Assembly (NCBI RefSeq): GCF_964355755.1
Contig: NC_092674.1
Coordinates: 29,748,001-29,812,000, forward strand
Length of the DNA: 64,000 nt
Direction: 5' to 3'
Source of the DNA: Antedon mediterranea
Lineage: Eukaryota > Echinodermata > Crinoidea > Comatulida > Antedonidae
Shown one piece after another: positions 3,401 to 25,116 of the stretch. The first letter of the stretch is position 1. Each line of letters begins with the position of its first letter. The notes under the pieces were generated by a model. It ran no database searches, was not told where the DNA came from, and saw nothing but the letters and a program-made list of their open reading frames with translations. A program made the translations under genes and the position numbers.

Positions 3401-6400
3401 CATGCCACATTATGATCCATTATTTTTTTTTTCCAGCTGAGTGGACTAGAAGTTTAATGTTATGTATGCACTTGAATCTGAAATATAAGAAGCTTATGTA
3501 ATATTACCTCTTTGTGGACCTCATCTCTCTCCTTGGCAGCAGCTTGATGGGCCGCACTGACGTACGCGTACTGCTTCTTCACCTCCATCAGCTCATGTTC
3601 AAGTCCATCACGCTCTCTAAAAAAGCAAATCAATTAAAATCAATGAAATCAATCAAAATCAATTTATTTCATAAAACTAAGGATATGTATAGTACAAATA
3701 TGTCATCATAGAAAGGGAACCCAAAATAAACAAAGCTTTAAGACGAGAGTCTTAACAAAACAATAAGGTAATAAGAAGATGTGTTGAGCCCAAATATGGT
3801 AGTGATACACCTAAATATGGTTGTGATATGACATCATCATGTCCATATATGGGCACATCACATTTAGTTTGATAGAGTAGAAAGAGCTTTACTCAATTTC
3901 ATAGACAATATTTAAATCAAGTGATTACAATACCTTCTAACATGGTCATAGTTTTCCTTCTTGTAATCTCCTTGCTGTATTGATGATTTCAAGTCCGTAA
4001 GCTCGAAAGTTAGTTTTCTACTTTGTGTTTCAAACTGTATTCTTTCCTTATGTTCTACGTTCAAACTCTGTAAAAACAGAATAGCATTTTACAAAGTAAT
4101 ACTTCCACATATGGTCCTGTACTCATGAGAGGTTACATACAGCCAGCAATTGTATTTAAACTGGTTAATGTACATCTGGCCAGTACAATAGTTAATGTCC
4201 ATTTAAACTGGTTAATGTACATCTGGCCAGTCCAACTAATTAATTTCCATTTAAACTGGTTAATGTCCATTTAAACTGGTTAATGTCCATCTAGCCAGTC
4301 CAACTGTATGGGTCACAAGGTACAATATCCACAGGAATGGACCTCCATGAAATTTACTCAAACATTGTGAGTGTACTGCAAAATGTCCTTATTTTAATCA
4401 GTATAGTTCTAATAAGTATACTGTACAACACAATACACAATACCACTTCATTTTATAGTATTTACTTCTTGTACAGTAGTAGTAGTAAAGAACGACTAAG
4501 TAAACATATGCTCTTCTGCACTGGCATACAATTTATTACGCAACATACTATATATTAAATGTCTATATTTCTCAAACTACTTAGCTGGATAGCCGCAGGA
4601 TAATGTCAGTAAATAAGCCAATAATGAGTTTGTAGTTTAGTTGAACAGGTTCTATGACACGGCAATACCCCAGGGAAATTAGGTGTCATGAATAAATATT
4701 ACGAAGCCAAATAAAATATGTTTATGATAATTAGCAGCAAGTCTGCTCCACTGTCTAACATTAAAATAGATTATCACGTTTGTATGTATATGTTGGTTCA
4801 GTTATTATTTTTAAAACAATACATAATTATTTAATTATTATTAATTTCTAATTATTAAACCAGTTTGATTGAAAACTATTATTTAACTTTGTATGCATCA
4901 CACATTGTTAGCATAAAGCTATAGCCAGTAGTGGAGCACTACCAGTACAGTCCCAGAAGACATGAAAAAGGCCAAGGTCATACCTCTTTATAAAAAAGGT
5001 AGTAGAACCGATATTGGAAACTATCGCCCTATAAGTATACTCAGTACAATGTCTAAAATTTTAGAGAAGGCTGTTTTTATTCAAATCGAAAAATACCTTA
5101 CTGAAAACAACGTATTGTATAAATATCAATCTGGATTTCGAGCTGCCTTCTCTACTGACACATGTTTGATAGACTTAGTTGATTCCCTTAAAACCCAAAC
5201 TTCTAAGGGAAATTTCTCGGGTATGGTGTTGGTCGATTTAAAGAAGGCATTTGACACTGTAGATCATGACATTTTATGTAATAAGCTTAAATTAATGGGT
5301 ATTGGATCTATTGAATGGTTCAAATCTTACTTATCAATAAGAAAGCAAATAGTAACTGTTGATGATCATTGCTCTCAATCTTGTACTGTTACATGCGGGG
5401 TTCCTCAAGGAAGTATCCTTGGACCCCTTTTGTTCTTATGTTTTGTTAATGACATGGTAACTTGTATTGATCCTGATTGTAAACTCCTTCTATACGCTGA
5501 TGACAGTGCAATTGTTTATTCACACAGAAATCCAGATATTATTTCTAAGAAGCTAGGGTCAACACTAGACTCCTTGTGTGATTGGCTTGTAGACAATAAG
5601 TTAACAATTAACCTGGATAAAACTGAGTGTATACTATTTGGTTCTAAGAGAAAAACTAAAAATGTTAACAATTTTAATGTCTCAACAAATGGTAACAATA
5701 TCAACACTAGTAATTGTGTCAAGTATCTGGGTATTGAAATAGATCAAAATTTAACGTGTTCTGAATATGCATGTAAAACCATTAAGAAAATTAATAATAG
5801 GCTTAAGTTTATGTACCGCCAACGTAAGATACTAAGTTGTAAGAATCGTAAACTATTATGCTCTGCTCTCATCCAATGTGTTTTTGATTATGCTGCATCT
5901 TCTTGGTTCTGTGGAACCAGTAAAGCTATCCAAAGAAAACTACAAATTGCTCAAAACAAAATGGTTAGACTCATAAAAGGAGTTGAACCCAGAAGACATA
6001 TAGGTGCTGATCAATTAGACGATTATGGATTGTTAAATGTAAAATATCGAGTAAAGTTCTTGCAAATTAGCCAAGTTCATAAAATATTTATGGGCAGAAG
6101 TGCTTCATACCTAAACGAAAACTTTCGTAGAGTTAATAACTTACATGGTCACTTCACTCGTGGTAGTAAACTCAATTTTGTTGTACCTAAAGTCCAAGGC
6201 ATAGTATGTAATACGTTCTATTTTAATGCAATCAGAGAATGGAATAACCTTAATATAATAACCTATTAAACAAATTTCCAACACATCTAAATTTAAAACT
6301 GAATTGAAACAATATTACAAAATTAAACATAGATAAATTATTATTGTGCCATTATATCAGATGTTTTGCTTATATGCTTATATATTTATGAACCCCGTCT

Positions 6401-10220: not shown

Positions 10221-13200
10221 ATGAAGGCTTCGAAAAACAGCTGTGGTAAAGAAAAATATTTGTTTGTACATCTTTGTGATCTGATCATAGAATGTCAGTC
10301 AGTGACCTGGTAACCATGACATATGATGTAAAAAAATCATACAATTTGAATCCAATTGAAAGTATTCCAAGAATGTTGATACATTTTCAGTAATTAATGT
10401 CTAATGAGGCCTACTGTAATTAATTGTATTCTGTTTTCATTTTTAGGTAATGATATTTTGAAAAAAACATCTTTTGAATCAGAAAACCTTTATCTTGAAG
10501 GCTGCCATGAAAACTTAACAATTCGTTCCCGCATCGTAATCTTTGTTCTCAACTATTGTAAAACTGACAATGACATCTTTCGAGTGTTCCTCTGTGACCC
10601 CTCGGTCAACAAGACAACATCGACATCCCCCACACCACTATGCATACTTAATGAACTAAAATGTGAACGGTTGAAATCTGAAGATATACCAGATGTTGTT
10701 CTTCAGAGCAAGTTGCCGGCTATCCTCTCATCGGATAGGTTATTGTGCTCCGTTGGTCTGTGTATTGTGTTGCGGAAAATTGTACGTCAAAGTCACAACA
10801 AATCCCCAGAAAGAAATTTAATCGCCTTGTTGGTATGCTTTCTGCTGTTTGATTTGTAGATACATTTTTAATCAATTTTCTTCCATTTTCGATTATTTTA
10901 TTAACATTTGAAATTTATTTTACAGGGTCATCAGCAAAGTTGCTTGAGAGGGTTTGCAGAGGGAAGTAGCTGGACAAAGTACTGCGAGATAGAATTACCA
11001 GCTGATGTTGACCAATGTTTTCATAACAAAAATATTCCTACATCCATCCTGAAATTTGAGAAATGTTTATCTCTGCCAGTCAGAATATCTAACCGAAAGA
11101 AACATCAAAGAATTTTGAAAAAGTCAATGTCAGATAGAAAACTTAAAGAGGAAGAACTTAAAGGTGCTACTGGGGTATCGTTGAGTGCAAGTACGAGTGT
11201 TGACTCTAAAGGCAACAGTAGTTGTTCAGAGATGGCAGGTGACATTTTGAAACATGGTGCAATAAATTGTTCTCCAAAACCTTCAAAGAAACCTAAAGTT
11301 ATCTCGGAACCAGAAATAGATATTAATAGTGACAGTAGTATTTCAGACAATACATCAAAACCATATACTACAGGTATATCTAAGAAGCAGTGTACCACAT
11401 CTAAACCGGTTTCTGAAGAATTTCTACCTCAACTGGAACACATCTTTGCAGAAGGTATCAACATGTCGCTAATTGATCTTGTGGTTTTTCCATGCGTTCA
11501 TCTGATTCTTCATCAAGCAGTTCAAAGTAACCAAATGACCCTTTTTTGGAGGATACCTCTGGTTCTGACTTGGTATCGTAGGATGTGGGACGTGAAGGAA
11601 GTTAAGAACTCTGCTAAAGCGTGTAAAATGACTATGGTTACGCCAATGTCAAAGGTGATAAAAAGTCCCAGTAATCATGAAGAAATGGAAGTAGAATTAG
11701 ATGCACCAAATACTGAAGGCACTGGGATGAAAGAGGCAAAACCTGTCTCAAAGTAAGTATCATTTAGCCGCGATAGTGAACGCTTACATTCAAATATGAT
11801 GCGATGGCTGTGTTGAATTCACAGGTGAAACCATTAAAAAAAGCTTATATTTTGTATCTGGTTTGACAGGTTTTTCCAAAAACATTTTATTTTTAATTGT
11901 ATTCAAAATAGGCGTGGTATGCGAATGGGAATTCAACGTAAAGCTGCGACTTTACTGGAAACACTAAATGATAAAGAACTCGTACTTAAGTTTGTAAAGC
12001 ATCCATCCTCCAGCATCAAGATACTCTGGGACCAGCTCCAACCTCAGGTTCATCCTGCCTATGGTGTGTACTCTATTATTTCAGTATGAATAGTAAGAAT
12101 TGATCATAAGATTTGTAGTGGAGCTGTAGCTTGGTGGTTAACATACTTGCCTTCCAATCTCAAGGTCTGGGGTTCAATCCTGACATGGTGCCAGAGTTGT
12201 ATTGTAACTCATGACTCTTTCAACTTCACTCCCTAAGTCTCAAATGAGACTTAGTTTATAAGAATGATAAATTATAAAATATATTTATCCATCCTGTAAT
12301 TGGCGAGTTACTCGATCTCTGTTGGCTGCGTATGTAAAAAAAATTTAAATATAAGATGCCAAATTGTATTTGTTGTAGGTGATGTGCCTGGCGAGCGTTC
12401 ACAACGAAAATGCCAGCAGATAGAAAATATTGTTGCAGCTGTGAAAATGATTGCCAAGGCTGGAGACTATGTTGTTGACTTTTGTAGTGGTGGGGTAAGA
12501 ACACTTTGTGTGCCTTATGCTCTGTCTACACTATCAAACTAGTGTGGTGAGTCCAAATATGGTAGTGATTTACCCAAATATGTTAGTGATATGACACCAT
12601 TATGTCCATACATGGGCACATTATTTTTGTCATATAAAGTTTGATAGTGTAAACAGAACTTAATATTTATCCAATAGTGTGTGTCCTGAACAGTATGTGT
12701 GAGCTTTCACAGCTCAATGACTAATTTGTCACCCAGTTTTTTTGTTTTTCTTTTACTTTATTGCATCGTAAACTGTGATGAAGACAAATAATTAAAATTC
12801 AGAACATTTAACAGATATAATATAAAAGTAATTTGTCACTTGTTATGCTAATATGCAATTTGTTTCTTTTAGGGTCACCTTGGTATTGTCTTAGCTGCTG
12901 TGTTACCAGACTGTCACATCATATTGGTTGAAAGTAAAGAAGTGTCAATCATTAAGGGTCTAAACCGAGTTAAAGAATTAGAATTGAAAAATGTTACATT
13001 CTACTTGGGAAATATTGACTACTACCATGGAAAGTTTGATATTGGGGTAAGATTATATCTTGATTTAATATAAACAAGGTTTGTTGCTTCCATTTCGTCA
13101 GGGATATACCACTAAACATCCACTTATTCAAATTAAAATGTCTACTTTTAAAAGCTGATCAATTTCACATCGCCTATCAAACTTCATAGTTCAACACACA

Positions 13201-16676: not shown

Positions 16677-19600
16677 TTATTTTCTGATAATGGTTGTTGC
16701 GCTGGCACGGGATAGCGTTCCAATCTTGATGTTGACTCCTGGTAATGCGTTGCCGACTTCTTTTACAATGTTCTTCCATGCTGTGTTGATGTACATATGT
16801 TTTCCTGGAAGAATAATCTTCTTGAATTTTTTGCCTTCTTGTTGCTGTAGGTGCCAATCGTCCAAAAGGTGTGGGTTGATGAACGGATCACTCTTTCCGC
16901 CAAAGGTCGTGATATTGCAAGGTAGACGATCTTTGTGACGGCATCTGTACTTCTTGCATGTCATGATGGCTGCCTCGATTGATGGTATCATTCGGCTCAT
17001 TAGACGCGAGTTGTTCAAGGTGGCTTGATCTAAGAAACTGAACTTGACGTTTTCTTGTTCCAGATTCTTTGCAACGTTGCCTCGTGAAGAAATTACTCGT
17101 CGAAGCTTTCGATATACTGATGTTGGTGCGTCTAATTCTTCTGGATGTGGATACGGCAAAGTTGGTGCGTACCATGCACTGATAAATAATTGAATAGGAC
17201 TTGAATTGAACTTTTTCATAATGTGATGGGCTGTTTCAAAAGCGATCAAAGCACCAAGGCTGTGACCAAAGAACACAAAACGATTTTTAATAAGCCGTGG
17301 AGCAAGAGCTTCGGATAGTTTTGTTACAATCTCTTGCATATCGTGTTGAGGTTTTTCTCGCTCTCTACCTTCCCATCCAGGAAACTGTAGCATGATTGTC
17401 TGAATGTTGTACTGAGCAAATAAATTCCTCCAGTGACTAAACATAGATGGGCCTCCTCCCACTGACGGGAAGCATACAACCTGTCCATGTGGTGCTGTTA
17501 TGTTGTCATCAATTCGGTACCATATCTCACCAGGTGTTGGAGAAATCGCTTGGTCAGCTCCATCGTTTTGATCTTGTTCTGTAGAGCCTGACATGATCTT
17601 TTTGTAGATGGACTGTGTGAGATTCCTCATAGTAAGGTTGTCGTTAAGGAGTTCAATAGCCACAACTGACACTCCAAAGTTCTCGTGAATTATACCGCTT
17701 AGCTCAGACGACATATGTGAATCAAGACCTAAACCGACTGGGGAAGTATCTTCAGATATATCATTAGTGATGCCAAGTCTTTGGGCAATGTGATTAGATA
17801 CTGTCTCAAATATCATGTTTGTCGCTTCAGTCGGGCTTAGAAGTCTAATTTTCATCTTTAGGTCATGTTCTGTAGCTAGAAATGTGTCTCTGTTTGAGAA
17901 CAAGTTCTTAAATATTGATAGTGTTCCTGCTGCTTCTTTGAAATGTTGAGAAAGCATCACACGATTGTTTTCGGCATACATTTTACGGTTGACTGAACCG
18001 GTCAATCCTAGCTCAGGATAATCTGTAACCAGCATGCATCCTAATCCTCTAAGAACATCTGAAGGAGAAAGACTCATCAACCCATTTTTCTCCCATTGGT
18101 CTACGTAACCTTTTCTAGCAGCGAATCCTGATGTGTTGATAACACCAGGACAAATCACAGTAGCCGGTAGCCCCATCTTCCTCCTCATGCTACAAAGAGA
18201 TGACAGAAAAGCGTTGGCAGCGCAATAGCTTCCTTGGCCGCCATTACCAATCATCTCAACAATGGATGAGAACATAACAAAGTACTTTATTGGAAGATTC
18301 ATGCGCATGCTCAGTTGATGTAATGATAGAGCGCCAAAGCCCTTCGTTGCTACAACTTCTTTCCATCTGTCTGGGTGTATTTGCCTTATAGCCATGTCAT
18401 GATAAACAGTAGCGCAATGGAAGATGCCTTCAAGTGGTAGTTCGCCATTATCTTTGATTGCACATAGAGCCTTTTCAAGATTTCCAAACCTCATTAAATC
18501 AGCTTTTAGATGAGTTATTCTGGCACCACTATCACGGAATATCTTGAATCGACTTATCGCTTCCTCTTCCGGTGTGAACCGGGAAACGACATATATGTGA
18601 CTTGCTCCGCAGTTGACCAACCATTCGATGAGTTCAAGACCAATGCCCTTTGACCCTCCAGTTACTAGATATGAAGCGTCTGGGTTGGCTTGGAAACCAA
18701 TATCTTCAAAATTTAGAGTTGCCGAAATAGTGTCTTCGTCAACACAAACGGTTGTATCATCAAGAGACGCGTGAGTGGCCTTTGCGAGTTTCGACATCTG
18801 AGCCGTTGGAATAGCAAGTGACTTGAGAGCCTGGAAGTCGTTATGAACGCTGAACATCTGCAGCAGACGAGTCATTGAATCTTGTAGTCGTACGCGCATC
18901 TGATCATACTTTCCAAGACCCATATCAATACCAATGTAGTAAATGTTTGGTGGTAGTACCCCGATTTTGCACTCGTTTTCGCCATTCTTTCCCGGAATCT
19001 GTACAATCGTACCGAATGGTTTGAGCTTGGCAATAAGTCTGTCAAGATGGTACCCATTGTCAATCATACCACCAGCAAACAGGAGGACATCAACCTCATT
19101 ATCTTGAATCATACTTTCAAAGTTATCTGGTGACGTTATAACCACACGTGAATCGCCAAGTATACCAAGAAGTTTCTCCACAGGAAATATGTTTTCATCA
19201 TTCTCCACATGGATGAAAACGTTTGCCCCTTGTTCTAACGCCAAGTGTGTCGTTGCAAGTCCGATCCTATCACTTAATGAGGACAAATAGACAATTACTG
19301 ACCCGTTTTCATTAAGTTTTAATGTATCATGAAATGCAACAAACGCGGGTAAATAGTCCTTTACAATATTAATGGCCTCAGTTGGTGTTAGGTTGCCTGG
19401 AACTGGGACAAGCTCGTTAGCTGCTGTACATATTGTCGATGTAACTACGCCATCTGCTTTGAATCCTAGAACAGTGTTTCGCGTCCTAAGCATGACGTGT
19501 ACTTCTTCTGTGCAGTGTACTATCTTCCCGGAATACAGATATCCTTGTAGGCTATTACCATCAGCTTCATCGTATTGATATTGCGCGGCAAATGCCCCGG

Positions 19601-22600
19601 CTTTTACAAGAACATCTTCAGGTCGTCTGACAAGTGGTGGATCGCTGTCCTGTTTCACCAGAAGACGTTTAGCTTTCACTGATTGTTCAATATTTACAAT
19701 CCAGTTTGATGATTGTGTTGGAGCAGAGAAGCTTGACTGTGGTTCCATAACAACTCTTGGTGCGTAAACCTCAAACGTCATCTCTCTAGGGAAGTCTGCT
19801 GAAGGTCGTCGTGGTACTCGTCTTCTCATTACAACATGATTTTCATCAGTTGGGATTGCTTTCATATAGTTGTACAGCCAAATAGCTGATTCCTCTTGAT
19901 CAATATGTGCAGGCAAGTCTATTGTGAACACTTGTAGTTCAGGATCCTCGTGCATAAGTGTCATTCCTAATGCTTGTACAGTGGATGACATCGGGTCGAT
20001 GGGGTCAATATCAAGAACTGCGTGCGCACTTCTAGTCACAAGCCATATTCTAGGCTTAACCTTTGCGTCATGTTTGCTTACAGCTTTGTAAAGGCTTATC
20101 GGGGCAATTGCGCTGATATTCTGTGCTTCATCGAAGTTTTCTTCTGTAATAGCATCTATTGACCCAAGTTCACGAACATCTAGTGTTGAAAGAACGATTA
20201 AATCGGTGACCATACCAAGAGAACGCAGTACCCGACGGAAGCGCTCATCTGAATCTGCTAAAATACGCGGGTCAAGCATACTGACAACATTTTCAACTTC
20301 TAGACGTTTCTTTAAATCAAAACAAACGCCGTTCTTGTCTTTAAATATCACTATTGCGCCTGCTTCTTCAGGGTTGTTCGGAATGTAGCTGATTGTTCGT
20401 CTGTTTTTAGATGTGGAGGCCGTTGGTATTTCGACTTCAGCCTTCTTTACGTAGACTGGAACCCATTCACGTCTCCAAAGTTGTATACTTTCATCTGGCT
20501 CTGGTGAATTCACATTTTCAAATATAAGTCTGTCGAACTGGGCGAATATTTTATGGTTGGCGGCATCAGCAACAACAATATATCCAACGGTTGTGTCTCC
20601 CTCCAACATCATCTGCACGTTAAAAACTATTCTTGTTGGTGATTTACCTTTCATTAATATTCGTTCCACAGCTCTTGGAACTTTGAACCATTTTGTGAAA
20701 CCACCGGTCTCGTTCCGTGCTCTCTGTTGCTCTTGTAACATAATGCAAAGACCAAATCCTTGGAATACGCTATCGAGGAAAGCGGGATGGAAGACAAAAT
20801 TGTCGAATTCTCGTACAAGTGTCTCTTGAGCAGTGGCGTAAACCAGTGCTTCGTTACAGTCGTGACTGAAATAAGCCTTTGTGGTGCTTTTAAAGTTGTC
20901 ACCAAGTTCAAAACCACCTTTCCATAATGTTGCATAAAACTCGTCTTTTTCCATTTCTCTTGGGCAACGTCTTCTGATATCATCTGTTGCAAGTTTTGAT
21001 TCTAACTCCTCAGTTTGTTCCAAGATGTTCACGTTCGTATTTCGTCGTTTGCCGATTGTATCAACAAGTGCACTACCGTGCAATGTCCATCCCTTTTCTG
21101 TAGGATTATAACTTCGAAGTGAAAACTTTGCCTCTTTAGATCTTAGTTCAACGGTAGTCTCCAAGGTACCTTTGACATCAGGTGTGAAGATGAATCTTTC
21201 AAAATTAACCCACCTCAGAGTGAGTATATCTGCGTCTGGTAAAACTGCACGAGCAGCTGCTAGAGCAGTTTCTGTGTGGGCTGCTGCAGGTATCACAGCA
21301 CTTCCTTGTAAGATATGATCTCTTAACCAAGGTACAGAACCAATTGTGAATTCAGAACGCCATACTTTCAAAGTACTCTCGTCATGGAAGTGAGATGTTT
21401 CCAAAGGTTTGCCCAGAAGAGGGTGATCTTTCAATGGGAACAAAAACATTTCCTTCGCTGTCTCTGTAGTAGCACTACAATGAACTCTTTGCCATGGGTA
21501 CGTCGGAAGTGACATCACCTTGTACTCTTGTTCATTGAATAACAACTCTGTTTCCAATGAGTAACCCTCTACGTGTAGTTTTGCTAGCGAGCGTAGGACA
21601 TTAACCCGATCGTCTGCTAAATCGCGCGTATCAGTTGGTCGTCTGAGAGAACCAGTAATAAAAATAGATTTTGATCTGTTTAAATTTGAGTTTATTACGT
21701 CTCTGACAGCAGGTGACAGCGATGGATGAGGACCAACCTCCAAAAAGCAATTGTATCCTTCTTGGAGAAGTTTTTCAACACCAGACATAAATTTCACTTG
21801 TCCTCTTATGTTCTTCCACCAGTAAGCCCCGGTGTTTGTGTCGTCCCTTGTAAGGTACTGATTTGTAACTGTTGACATCATCGGTATGACAGGGCTAGAT
21901 TCAAGTGATTGTCTGTTTGTACTGTTTGGAGATAGAAACTTAACTTTCTTTAAAAAGTCTTTTCGTATGTGATCTTGTTGGTAGCTGTGAAATGCGTTTG
22001 CAACGTGCAAGCGCGTACAGCGTAATCCCTCCTCACGCAGGCCATCTGCAAACGTTGTCAGTGCTTCTGTTTCACCAGACAAAACAATCTGAGTTGGACT
22101 ATTTACTGCGGCAACATCAACAACACTTACACACTCACTGCCATCAAGTCGGGTCTGGATGTCCTCTACTGAATGTAGAACTGCGACCATAGTACCACGT
22201 CCTGTAGTCTTGCGTAACTGACGACCTCTGTGGTAGATTATCTTGATGGCATCGTCTAGGGTAATCAAACCTGCTACGTGAGCTGCAGCAACTTCACCGA
22301 CACTATGACCGATGACGGCATCCGGCGTAACTCCGCGCTGGCGGTATAGTTCTGCTAAACCAATCTGGACGGCAAATATTGATGGTTGGGCAATTTCTGT
22401 GGAATAGAACATGTTTTTTATTAGATTAAGCTTCACGTATTGAACTGAATGTAAGAAGCAGTAATAGATGGTCAGGTTCAATCTACTTACCAGTAATATT
22501 GACTGTTTCCTTGTCTGTTTCTTTGGTTAGTGTGTGGACGAGTGACCACTTTGCGCCACATTTGGTCAATGCTTTGTCGATACGCTGTAAAACATAGAAA

Positions 22601-25116
22601 TAGTTCCATGAATAATACTTTTAAAATGCATTAGAATTGAGTTGAAAGTTTCCCTCTACAATGACAACATAAGCGATCACCTCTCGTTATAGATCTGTCA
22701 ATTAGTACACAGAGGATAATTTCAGGAATAATGAAAAACACTGAATGTTTTAATTGGACATACCTTGATGACATTTCGGAAAGTTGGTTCATCTTCCATC
22801 AGATTTCTTGCCATTCCCCACCACTGTGTGCCCATACCAGAGAACACAAACACCAGACGGTGCCCTGATGTCCCATCTGCCATCTTTCCTTCCACAACAT
22901 TAGTAGCAGCTCTAGGATCATGGTCAAGTTTCAGTCTGATTTGGTCAACAGCTTCTCTGGCAGATCTAGCAATGATACCCATCCTGTATTGATGATGGTA
23001 CGACCGGACAGATGCTGTGTAAAGAGAATTTGTGAACGCCCGGTGGTCGTTACCTATTGTATTGTTCAAGTATGTTACCCAGTCATCCAGTCGTTTCAAT
23101 AGCGCATCTTTATTGGCAGCAGAAAGAAATAGTATTCTTGGTTCTGGGGTATCGAGGGTATTGTGCACTTCAATGCGGTGTGATGGATCTGGTATTCTAG
23201 GCCCATAATATGGAAATGCTTCCATTACAATGTGAGCGTTTGCACCTCCAAAGCCAAAGGAACTGCAACCTGCAAGTCGTTTCTTTACCTTAGGCCAGCG
23301 TGTCAGTTCTGTCGGTACGCGTAAATTCAGTCCCTCAAAATCAACTGCTTCGTTTCCTTCCCGAAAATGGACAGCTTTTGGAATTTGTTCAAAGTATAAG
23401 CTAAGAGCAGTTTTGATTACCCCTGATACGCCAGAAGCTCCTTCCGAATGTCCTATGTTGGATTTGACTGACGCCATGTAAAGAGGCGGTTGATCAGGCC
23501 GTCTATTTAACCCCATAGCTTGACCGATTGCATTCGCTTCGGTTTTATCACCAATCTGGGTGCCGGTGCCGTGCGCTTCAACATATTGAACTTCTTCTGG
23601 GTGTACCTTAGCGTTCAAGTACGCCGACTCAATAAGTGCAACCTGGGCCTCAAAGCTTGGGTTGGCAATACCGGGAGTACGTCCATCGTTGCACAAGGAT
23701 CCACCACGTATCACACTGTATATCCTATCGCCATCATTTAACGCTCTTTGTAATGATTTCAAGATTACAACCCCAGCGCCCTCTGCTCTAGCGTATCCGT
23801 CGGCTGACTTGTCAAAGCTTTTACATTTTCCATCTGGTGACAACATACCGGCTTGACAGAAGCCGATACTTGTTACAGGCATGAGTGAAATATTGGCGCC
23901 ACCTGCCACCGCCATGTCACAGTCACCTGATCGTATAGCTTCGCAGGCAAGATGAACAGAGTACATAGAAGAAGAGCATGCGGTATCAATCACATAACTG
24001 GGGCCGTGGAAATCAAATTCATACGAAATTCTATTTGCAGCCATCGCGGAATTAATGCCAGAGTTTGTATACTGATTAATGTTTTCATTGGGTATGCTTG
24101 TCAGTATTCCGTACTCGCTGGCTGTCAGTCCAATATAAACGCCTGTATTTGAACCTCGCGCAGACGATGCTGGTATTCCCGCGTTTTCTAAAGATTCCCA
24201 AACAACTTCCAGTAGAAGACGAACTTGTGGATCAAGATGATTTGCCTCCTCTAAATTAAAAAAATAGAAATTTATTCAGTTTTAGTTGGTTTTGAAATTT
24301 AAAAATAAAAAAAAAACTTGAAAGTTCGTAACAGTATAGGCAAAGTAAAATTATTGAGTGATTTTGCTATATTAAGAGAAATCATGTACTTAGGTTTGGG
24401 TGCTGACGTGAACCTTAAGCTCTGTCTACATTATCAAACTTTTTGTGACAAAAAAATCTGATGTGTCCATATATGAACATGATGATGTCATATCACTACC
24501 ATATTTAGGCATTTCACCACTATATCGACTCTAGTTTGACAGTGTTGAGACAGGGCTTTGCTTCCCCATTAATTTTACTTGTTTTTCACAGCGCTTCGAG
24601 ACTGTTTTTTGCGCTTTATGAATTTAAAACCATTAAATGAATATTGCGAAGTAGAAGTCTCTTTCAAATGATTGTGATTAAACTATGCTACCTTAAATGT
24701 TTGTACAATTTACCTGGTGACATCTTGAAGAACTGTCTGTCAAACTTGAGAGGATCCTGTGTCAAATATCCGCCATTTTTGTTGTACATTTTTCCGGGAA
24801 TTTTTTTGCCTGGATACAAGAAATAAGATGTGTCGAACCTGTCGTCTGGTGGAGGAATCGAACAATCTAGTCCTTTGGCCAACATATCCCAAAACTTGGC
24901 AACAGTGTCCACACCATTGGCATATCGACACCCAATTCCAACAATGGCTATTTTTCTATCAAGGCTTAGTGTCGGGTCATGGCTTGGACTCTGACCTCGT
25001 TTTGGTCTTGCTCCTTCTTCAAACTTCATATTGTAGGATGATTTTGACCGTACTGGAAAGCTGAGCGCGCGACGCCGTCTCAGCGTACTCGAGCTGTAAT
25101 GTTCAATATGCTCCAT
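16677..25116 (-). CDS. Animal type I polyketide synthase, KS-AT-DH-(degenerate ER)-KR-ACP-TE
   Basis: Coding exons: 25116-24714, 24250-22764, 22584-22491, 22396-16677 (2567 aa, all GT-AG, in frame). A basic leader of about 54 residues precedes the ketosynthase (Cys226 in DTACSSS, His361 in EAHGTGT, His402 in NIGHS). The acyltransferase follows (Ser693 in GHSVGE, His798 in NAFHS; the AFHS form suggests malonyl-CoA). The dehydratase has His1022 in DHILQGSAVIP and Asp1203 in HPAFLDSVFQ. Next come a structural linker and an ER-like region at about 1580-1870 whose nucleotide loop is altered. The ketoreductase has GGSKGIG at 1908, Ser2039, Tyr2052 and Asn2056. The carrier-protein Ser2221 lies in GLDSHMS. 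A C-terminal thioesterase has Ser2374 in GHSLG, Asp2498 and His2528. The product should be an iteratively built, partly reduced polyketide released by the TE. Related sea urchin Pks genes make larval pigment and affect skeletogenesis; orthology here is not proven. The product is unknown. Confidence 0.95.
24417..24557. repeat. Fold-back MITE family A
   Basis: The left end is AAGCTCTGTCTACATTATCA and the right end is a diverged GACAGTGTTGAGACAGGGCT. It is in the first coding intron of the PKS, orientation-neutral because the element is palindromic. Confidence 0.8.

Follow-up and report, generated by a model that had tools for sequence, protein, structure and literature searches.

Several animal type I polyketide synthases (PKSs) distinct from fatty acid synthase (FAS) have been described. 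Sea urchin PKS-2, which is required for the larval spicules, is listed with the domains ketosynthase (KS), acyltransferase (AT), dehydratase (DH), ketoreductase (KR), acyl carrier protein (ACP) and thioesterase (TE) in the order KS-AT-DH*-KR-ACP-TE, its DH being marked as without one active-site residue, and an enoylreductase (ER) is included in the accompanying discussion (PMC4604110). The same work lists coral PKSs ending in a TE, with Acropora aug_v2a.12941 and aug_v2a.16843 given as KS-AT-DH-KR-(ACP)-TE plus an extra N-terminal part. The echinoderm Pks1 type (SpPks1, CrPKS) is without a TE and carries a GMMD or GLMD motif in the KS, the GLMD form being found in 17 of 18 crinoid genomes and GMMD in other echinoderm classes; the KS, AT and ACP of SpPks1 suffice for product formation, and echinoderm PKSs are stated to lack a thioesterase (PMC11414698). 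Medaka OlPKS has the order KS-AT-DH-KR-ACP, with neither a recognised ER nor a TE, and a budgerigar enzyme is a polyene PKS, a bird PKS making polyenes also being mentioned in PMC10764717. For Pks2-class enzymes, we found no report of a product in the open-access literature searched.

The window analyzed here, a stretch of 64,000 nt from the crinoid Antedon mediterranea, encodes a PKS on its minus strand. Four exons of 403, 1487, 94 and 5720 nt yield 7704 nt of coding sequence for 2567 residues with a single terminal stop; when we re-derived every exon and junction from the window, this reconstruction, first proposed in an earlier note on the locus, was recovered in full. All three junctions have canonical GT/AG sites (donors GTAAAT, GTATGT and GTAAGT; acceptors TTTAG, TACAG and CACAG). 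Four paralogues in other parts of the genome have the same four-exon structure, with junction phases 1, 0 and 1 and a third exon of just 94-97 nt (4/4), and so support the junctions independently of RNA-seq, although the window protein guided the building of their gene models. Elsewhere in the window, a 445-aa open frame at 4932-6269 on the plus strand contains a LINE-like reverse transcriptase domain (RVT_1, 127.7 bits). An Rfam search of the whole 64,000-nt window gave no match; a let-7 gene is present in the host genome, in keeping with a bilaterian, and mitochondrial COX1 had no match in the assembly.

Pfam detected KS (285.5 bits; KS-C, 116.7), AT (224.4), DH (PKS_DH_N, 56.2; PS-DH, 51.4), KR (142.4), ACP and TE (89.8) in that order, with the ACP barely at threshold (PP-binding, 20.9 bits against a Pfam cut-off of 20.8). 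The catalytic residues checked in all six domains are present in the one polypeptide (Table 1), as had been claimed. That so long an open frame should also contain these domains is far beyond chance. The AT motif, NAFHS, resembles that of CurL (HAFHS), unlike that of EryAII (YASHS), and this malonyl-type signature suggests malonyl use.

Table 1. Features of the window PKS gene (positions refer to the window)
Feature	Residues	Position	Strand	Basis
Exon 1: N-terminal extension and KS start	aa 1-134	24714..25116	-	splice sites, frame; paralogue phase
Exon 2: remaining KS, linker, AT start	aa 136-630	22764..24250	-	splice sites, Pfam
Exon 3: 94 nt within AT	aa 631-661	22491..22584	-	splice sites; paralogue exon size
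Exon 4: remaining AT, DH, degenerate ER region, KR, ACP, TE, stop codon		16677..22396	-	open frame, Pfam
Ketosynthase (intron 24713-24251 included)	aa 50-482; Cys226, His361, His402	23208..24969	-	Pfam PF00109/PF02801, motif alignment, tree
Acyltransferase (introns included)	aa 601-939; Ser693, His798	21564..22853	-	Pfam PF00698, motif alignment
Dehydratase	aa 986-1287; His1022, Asp1203	20520..21425	-	Pfam PF21089/PF14765, motif alignment
DH-KR interval: probably structural KR and dead enoylreductase	aa 1291-1890	18711..20510	-	Pfam blank, weak hhalign match, motif row
Ketoreductase	aa 1902-2079; TGGSKGIG, Lys2013, Ser2038/2039, Tyr2052, Asn2056	18144..18677	-	Pfam PF08659, motif alignment
Acyl carrier protein	aa 2193-2255; Ser2221	17616..17804	-	Pfam PF00550, motif alignment
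Thioesterase, type II TE family	aa 2300-2542; Ser2374, Asp2498, His2528	16755..17483	-	Pfam PF00975, PDB matches, fold

The window protein has the order KS-AT-DH-(ER)-KR-ACP-TE of Pks2 (Pfam domains compared with Table 2 and the discussion of PMC4604110), and sea urchin Pks2 (SpPks2, NP_001239013.1; HpPKS-2) is likewise a non-FAS enzyme, the two being likened by architecture alone. They differ in that the window DH retains both its His and its Asp, and in that the host genome contains several TE-bearing PKS (TE-PKS) genes. Compared by description, medaka OlPKS and the budgerigar enzyme are like the window gene in being non-FAS animal PKSs, OlPKS also in its lack of a recognised ER, and the Acropora proteins are like it in domain order. 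The earlier note had thought the architecture worth characterising; it is not unusual for the lineage, with the layout already published for sea urchin PKS-2 and three further intact TE-PKSs in the same genome; the gene is a new, divergent member of this published architecture.

The position of the KS was assessed in a tree of 41 rows, in which the host's own genes were set beside 30 bacterial KSs, CurL, EryAII and human FAS. With support of 100/100, the window KS grouped with those of four host paralogues, three of which also have the TE layout, apart from host and human FAS, and forcing the window KS into the FAS group cost 51 log units (AU test, p-AU 0.00014). Placement within ordinary FAS, which the earlier note had named as grounds for giving up its reading, is thus ruled out for the KS by the tree and the AU test. 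A single clade for all host PKSs, of both the TE-PKS and Pks1 types, was not rejected (AU p 0.42). With a KS outside the animal FAS clade, and KS, AT and ACP with their catalytic residues in one polypeptide, the window protein has the features of an animal type I PKS. AFPKs are distinguished by a FAS-like KS that bridges FAS and PKS; compared with CurL and FAS, the KS-AT part of the window protein is far nearer to the PKS.

The TE has other relatives than that of FAS. Searched against the PDB, the window TE matched RedJ, RifR, OLAH, TesA and further type II TEs, and the FAS thioesterase was absent among the matches at E 0.001; the host FAS TE matched the human and pig FAS TEs. Foldseek ranked RedJ and RifR first for the predicted structure of the window TE, with low TM-scores and from a low-confidence model (pLDDT 60) that informs on overall fold only. 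The synthase thus seems to carry a fused thioesterase of type II rather than of the FAS type. Its best matches RedJ, RifR and OLAH are free proteins, whereas the window TE is fused behind the ACP. In two Paenibacillus genomes (L049 and L058, near 12430-12510), a similar TE lies just behind the end of a PKS frame, outside the frame; the KS of these PKSs is 47% identical to the window KS.

Between the DH and KR, approximately 600 residues gave no Pfam match and contained no recognisable enoylreductase. Aligned by hhalign to the ER of host Pks1, this interval matched it weakly, though collinearly (E 0.0048, probability 7%), with SDRIG standing where the Pks1 ER has its nucleotide-binding GGVG. 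The absent Pfam ER match and the replaced GGVG set the sequence apart from the working enoylreductase of animal FAS. The interval is only 21-23% identical to the paralogues, compared to 63-66% for the KS and 46-49% for the KR, and its AlphaFold model (mean pLDDT 44) was too poor for use. We infer that it probably comprises the structural part of the KR together with a dead ER. The description of the protein as a full iterative synthase stands in that the type I PKS is complete, distinct from FAS and equipped with a TE of its own; it overlooked the probable ER loss, and iteration and release mode are predictions.

We searched the host genome (G000; 354 Mb, 18 contigs) for relatives. Four TE-PKSs are intact: the window gene, which has diverged the furthest among intact members, a tandem pair at C1:4.19-4.21 Mb and one gene at C1:30.46-30.48 Mb. 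A further copy, C1b (L031/L032, C1:30549890-30557408; C1:30.55 Mb), encodes 2185 aa and stops after the ACP; no TE relic was found in the 5.6 kb that follow. At least three copies have decayed. One of these (L038/L039, C11:9515927-9526904) bears a TE, which is 90% identical to that of the C1:30.47 Mb copy and in which the His preceding the TE serine has become Asn; its exon 4 contains in-frame stops as well as a change of frame, and the copy is apparently a pseudogene. For C11a, no gene model could be built owing to in-frame stops. In two KS-AT remnants (L040, C11:9620644-9623660; L034, C1:30660014-30667848), the active-site Cys of the KS is replaced by Ser (DTASSSS). The genome also contains two Pks1-type genes (L042 and L043, C4:27561457-27568344 and 27606385-27613284) approximately 45 kb apart and coded almost in one frame, with the GLMD motif, an ER with GGVG and no TE; they match the pigment type, and their GLMD fits a crinoid host. 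The host FAS gene lies at C1:22.737-22.754 Mb; in its intron between KS exons, there is a long low-complexity repeat that is open in three frames (L044, C1:22740841-22742825).

These observations probably identify an animal type I PKS of the Pks2 type, intact but divergent, whose TE would release an unsaturated acid that is reduced only in part, with orthology to Pks2 suggested by architecture only. In the proposed cycle, the AT would load malonyl-CoA onto the ACP, the single KS would condense iteratively, and the KR and DH would reduce and then dehydrate each beta-keto group. Because the KR and DH would work without an ER, double bonds would be left in the chain. The C-terminal TE, a putative fused type II thioesterase, would then hydrolyze the finished chain from the ACP, and the expected product would be a polyene-like, unsaturated carboxylic acid or the corresponding lactone.

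Other readings of the gene were weighed against this one. We give almost no credence to its being a fatty acid synthase, for although the general domain order is alike, a TE is terminal and the host does possess a FAS, the KS-AT part matches CurL at 565 bits and FAS at 368, whereas the host FAS KS scores 652 bits to human FAS; the host FAS gene has many exons compared to four in the window gene, the TE differs from the FAS type and the AU test rejects a grouping of the KS with FAS. It is also very improbable that the gene is a decaying copy, open by chance and no longer encoding a working enzyme like those on C11 and at C1:30.66 Mb. The decay of at least three relatives in the same genome is in line with this idea, as are the DH and middle regions of the window gene, just 21-33% identical to the paralogues, but the 7.7 kb coding sequence is open and all catalytic residues are kept. 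In addition, third-position differences exceed second-position differences in every comparison between the window gene and a paralogue (for example, 0.657 and 0.363), the pattern that selection acting on the protein would produce; dS to the paralogues was saturated, so no dN/dS value is given.

An association of echinoderm Pks genes with pigment and skeleton, cited by the earlier note, is published, with pigment belonging to the TE-less Pks1 type and skeleton to Pks2; for the window gene, either role would be putative. As a Pks1-like pigment synthase, the enzyme would make aromatic naphthalene or naphthopyrone precursors with idle reducing domains. Some observations are compatible with such a role: the gene is an echinoderm PKS, a single clade of all host PKSs is not rejected, and the reducing domains need not be used, because SpPks1 makes aromatics using the KS, AT and ACP alone (PMC11414698). 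The role is nevertheless improbable, as the Pks1-type genes of the host are separate (C4:27.57 and 27.61 Mb), and the window KS has TASEY where Pks1 has GMMD or GLMD, in a protein that ends in a TE with an intact triad. The window KS has alanine at the Pks1 chain-length residue; going by the mutants described in PMC11414698, our guess is that the pocket may be wider as a result. A less remote but still unlikely alternative is that the TE is an editing enzyme that removes stalled or wrong acyl groups, with the product leaving otherwise, for instance by pyrone formation. The TE belongs to the family of the editing type II TEs, the sister copy C1b has neither a TE nor a relic of one, and animal PKSs without a TE are able to release their products (PMC10764717). 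Nonetheless, every intact copy but C1b has the TE fused behind the ACP, where a release domain usually sits. Free type II TEs edit chains, but the animal relative OLAH frees acyl chains from FAS. We continue to favor a Pks2-type synthase with TE-mediated release.

More tentatively, a gene of the Pks2 type, fused to a type II TE, may have expanded in this crinoid lineage into a functionally diverged family; the window gene would then make its own unsaturated polyketide acid, one that is not known in other echinoderms, with a TE recruited from outside FAS; we regard this as possible, though doubtful. No description of a TE-PKS family that has expanded, with loss of the TE and decay of copies, or of the TE as belonging to type II, was found in the open-access literature, which is not proof of novelty. 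Given the host genome and sea urchin PKS-2 (PMC4604110), the statement that echinoderm PKSs lack a TE (PMC11414698) holds just for the Pks1 type. Several natural variants of one enzyme class, with and without a TE, are available in the TE-PKS family, and the apparent type II nature of this domain would raise a testable point, namely whether such synthases use it for chain release or for editing.
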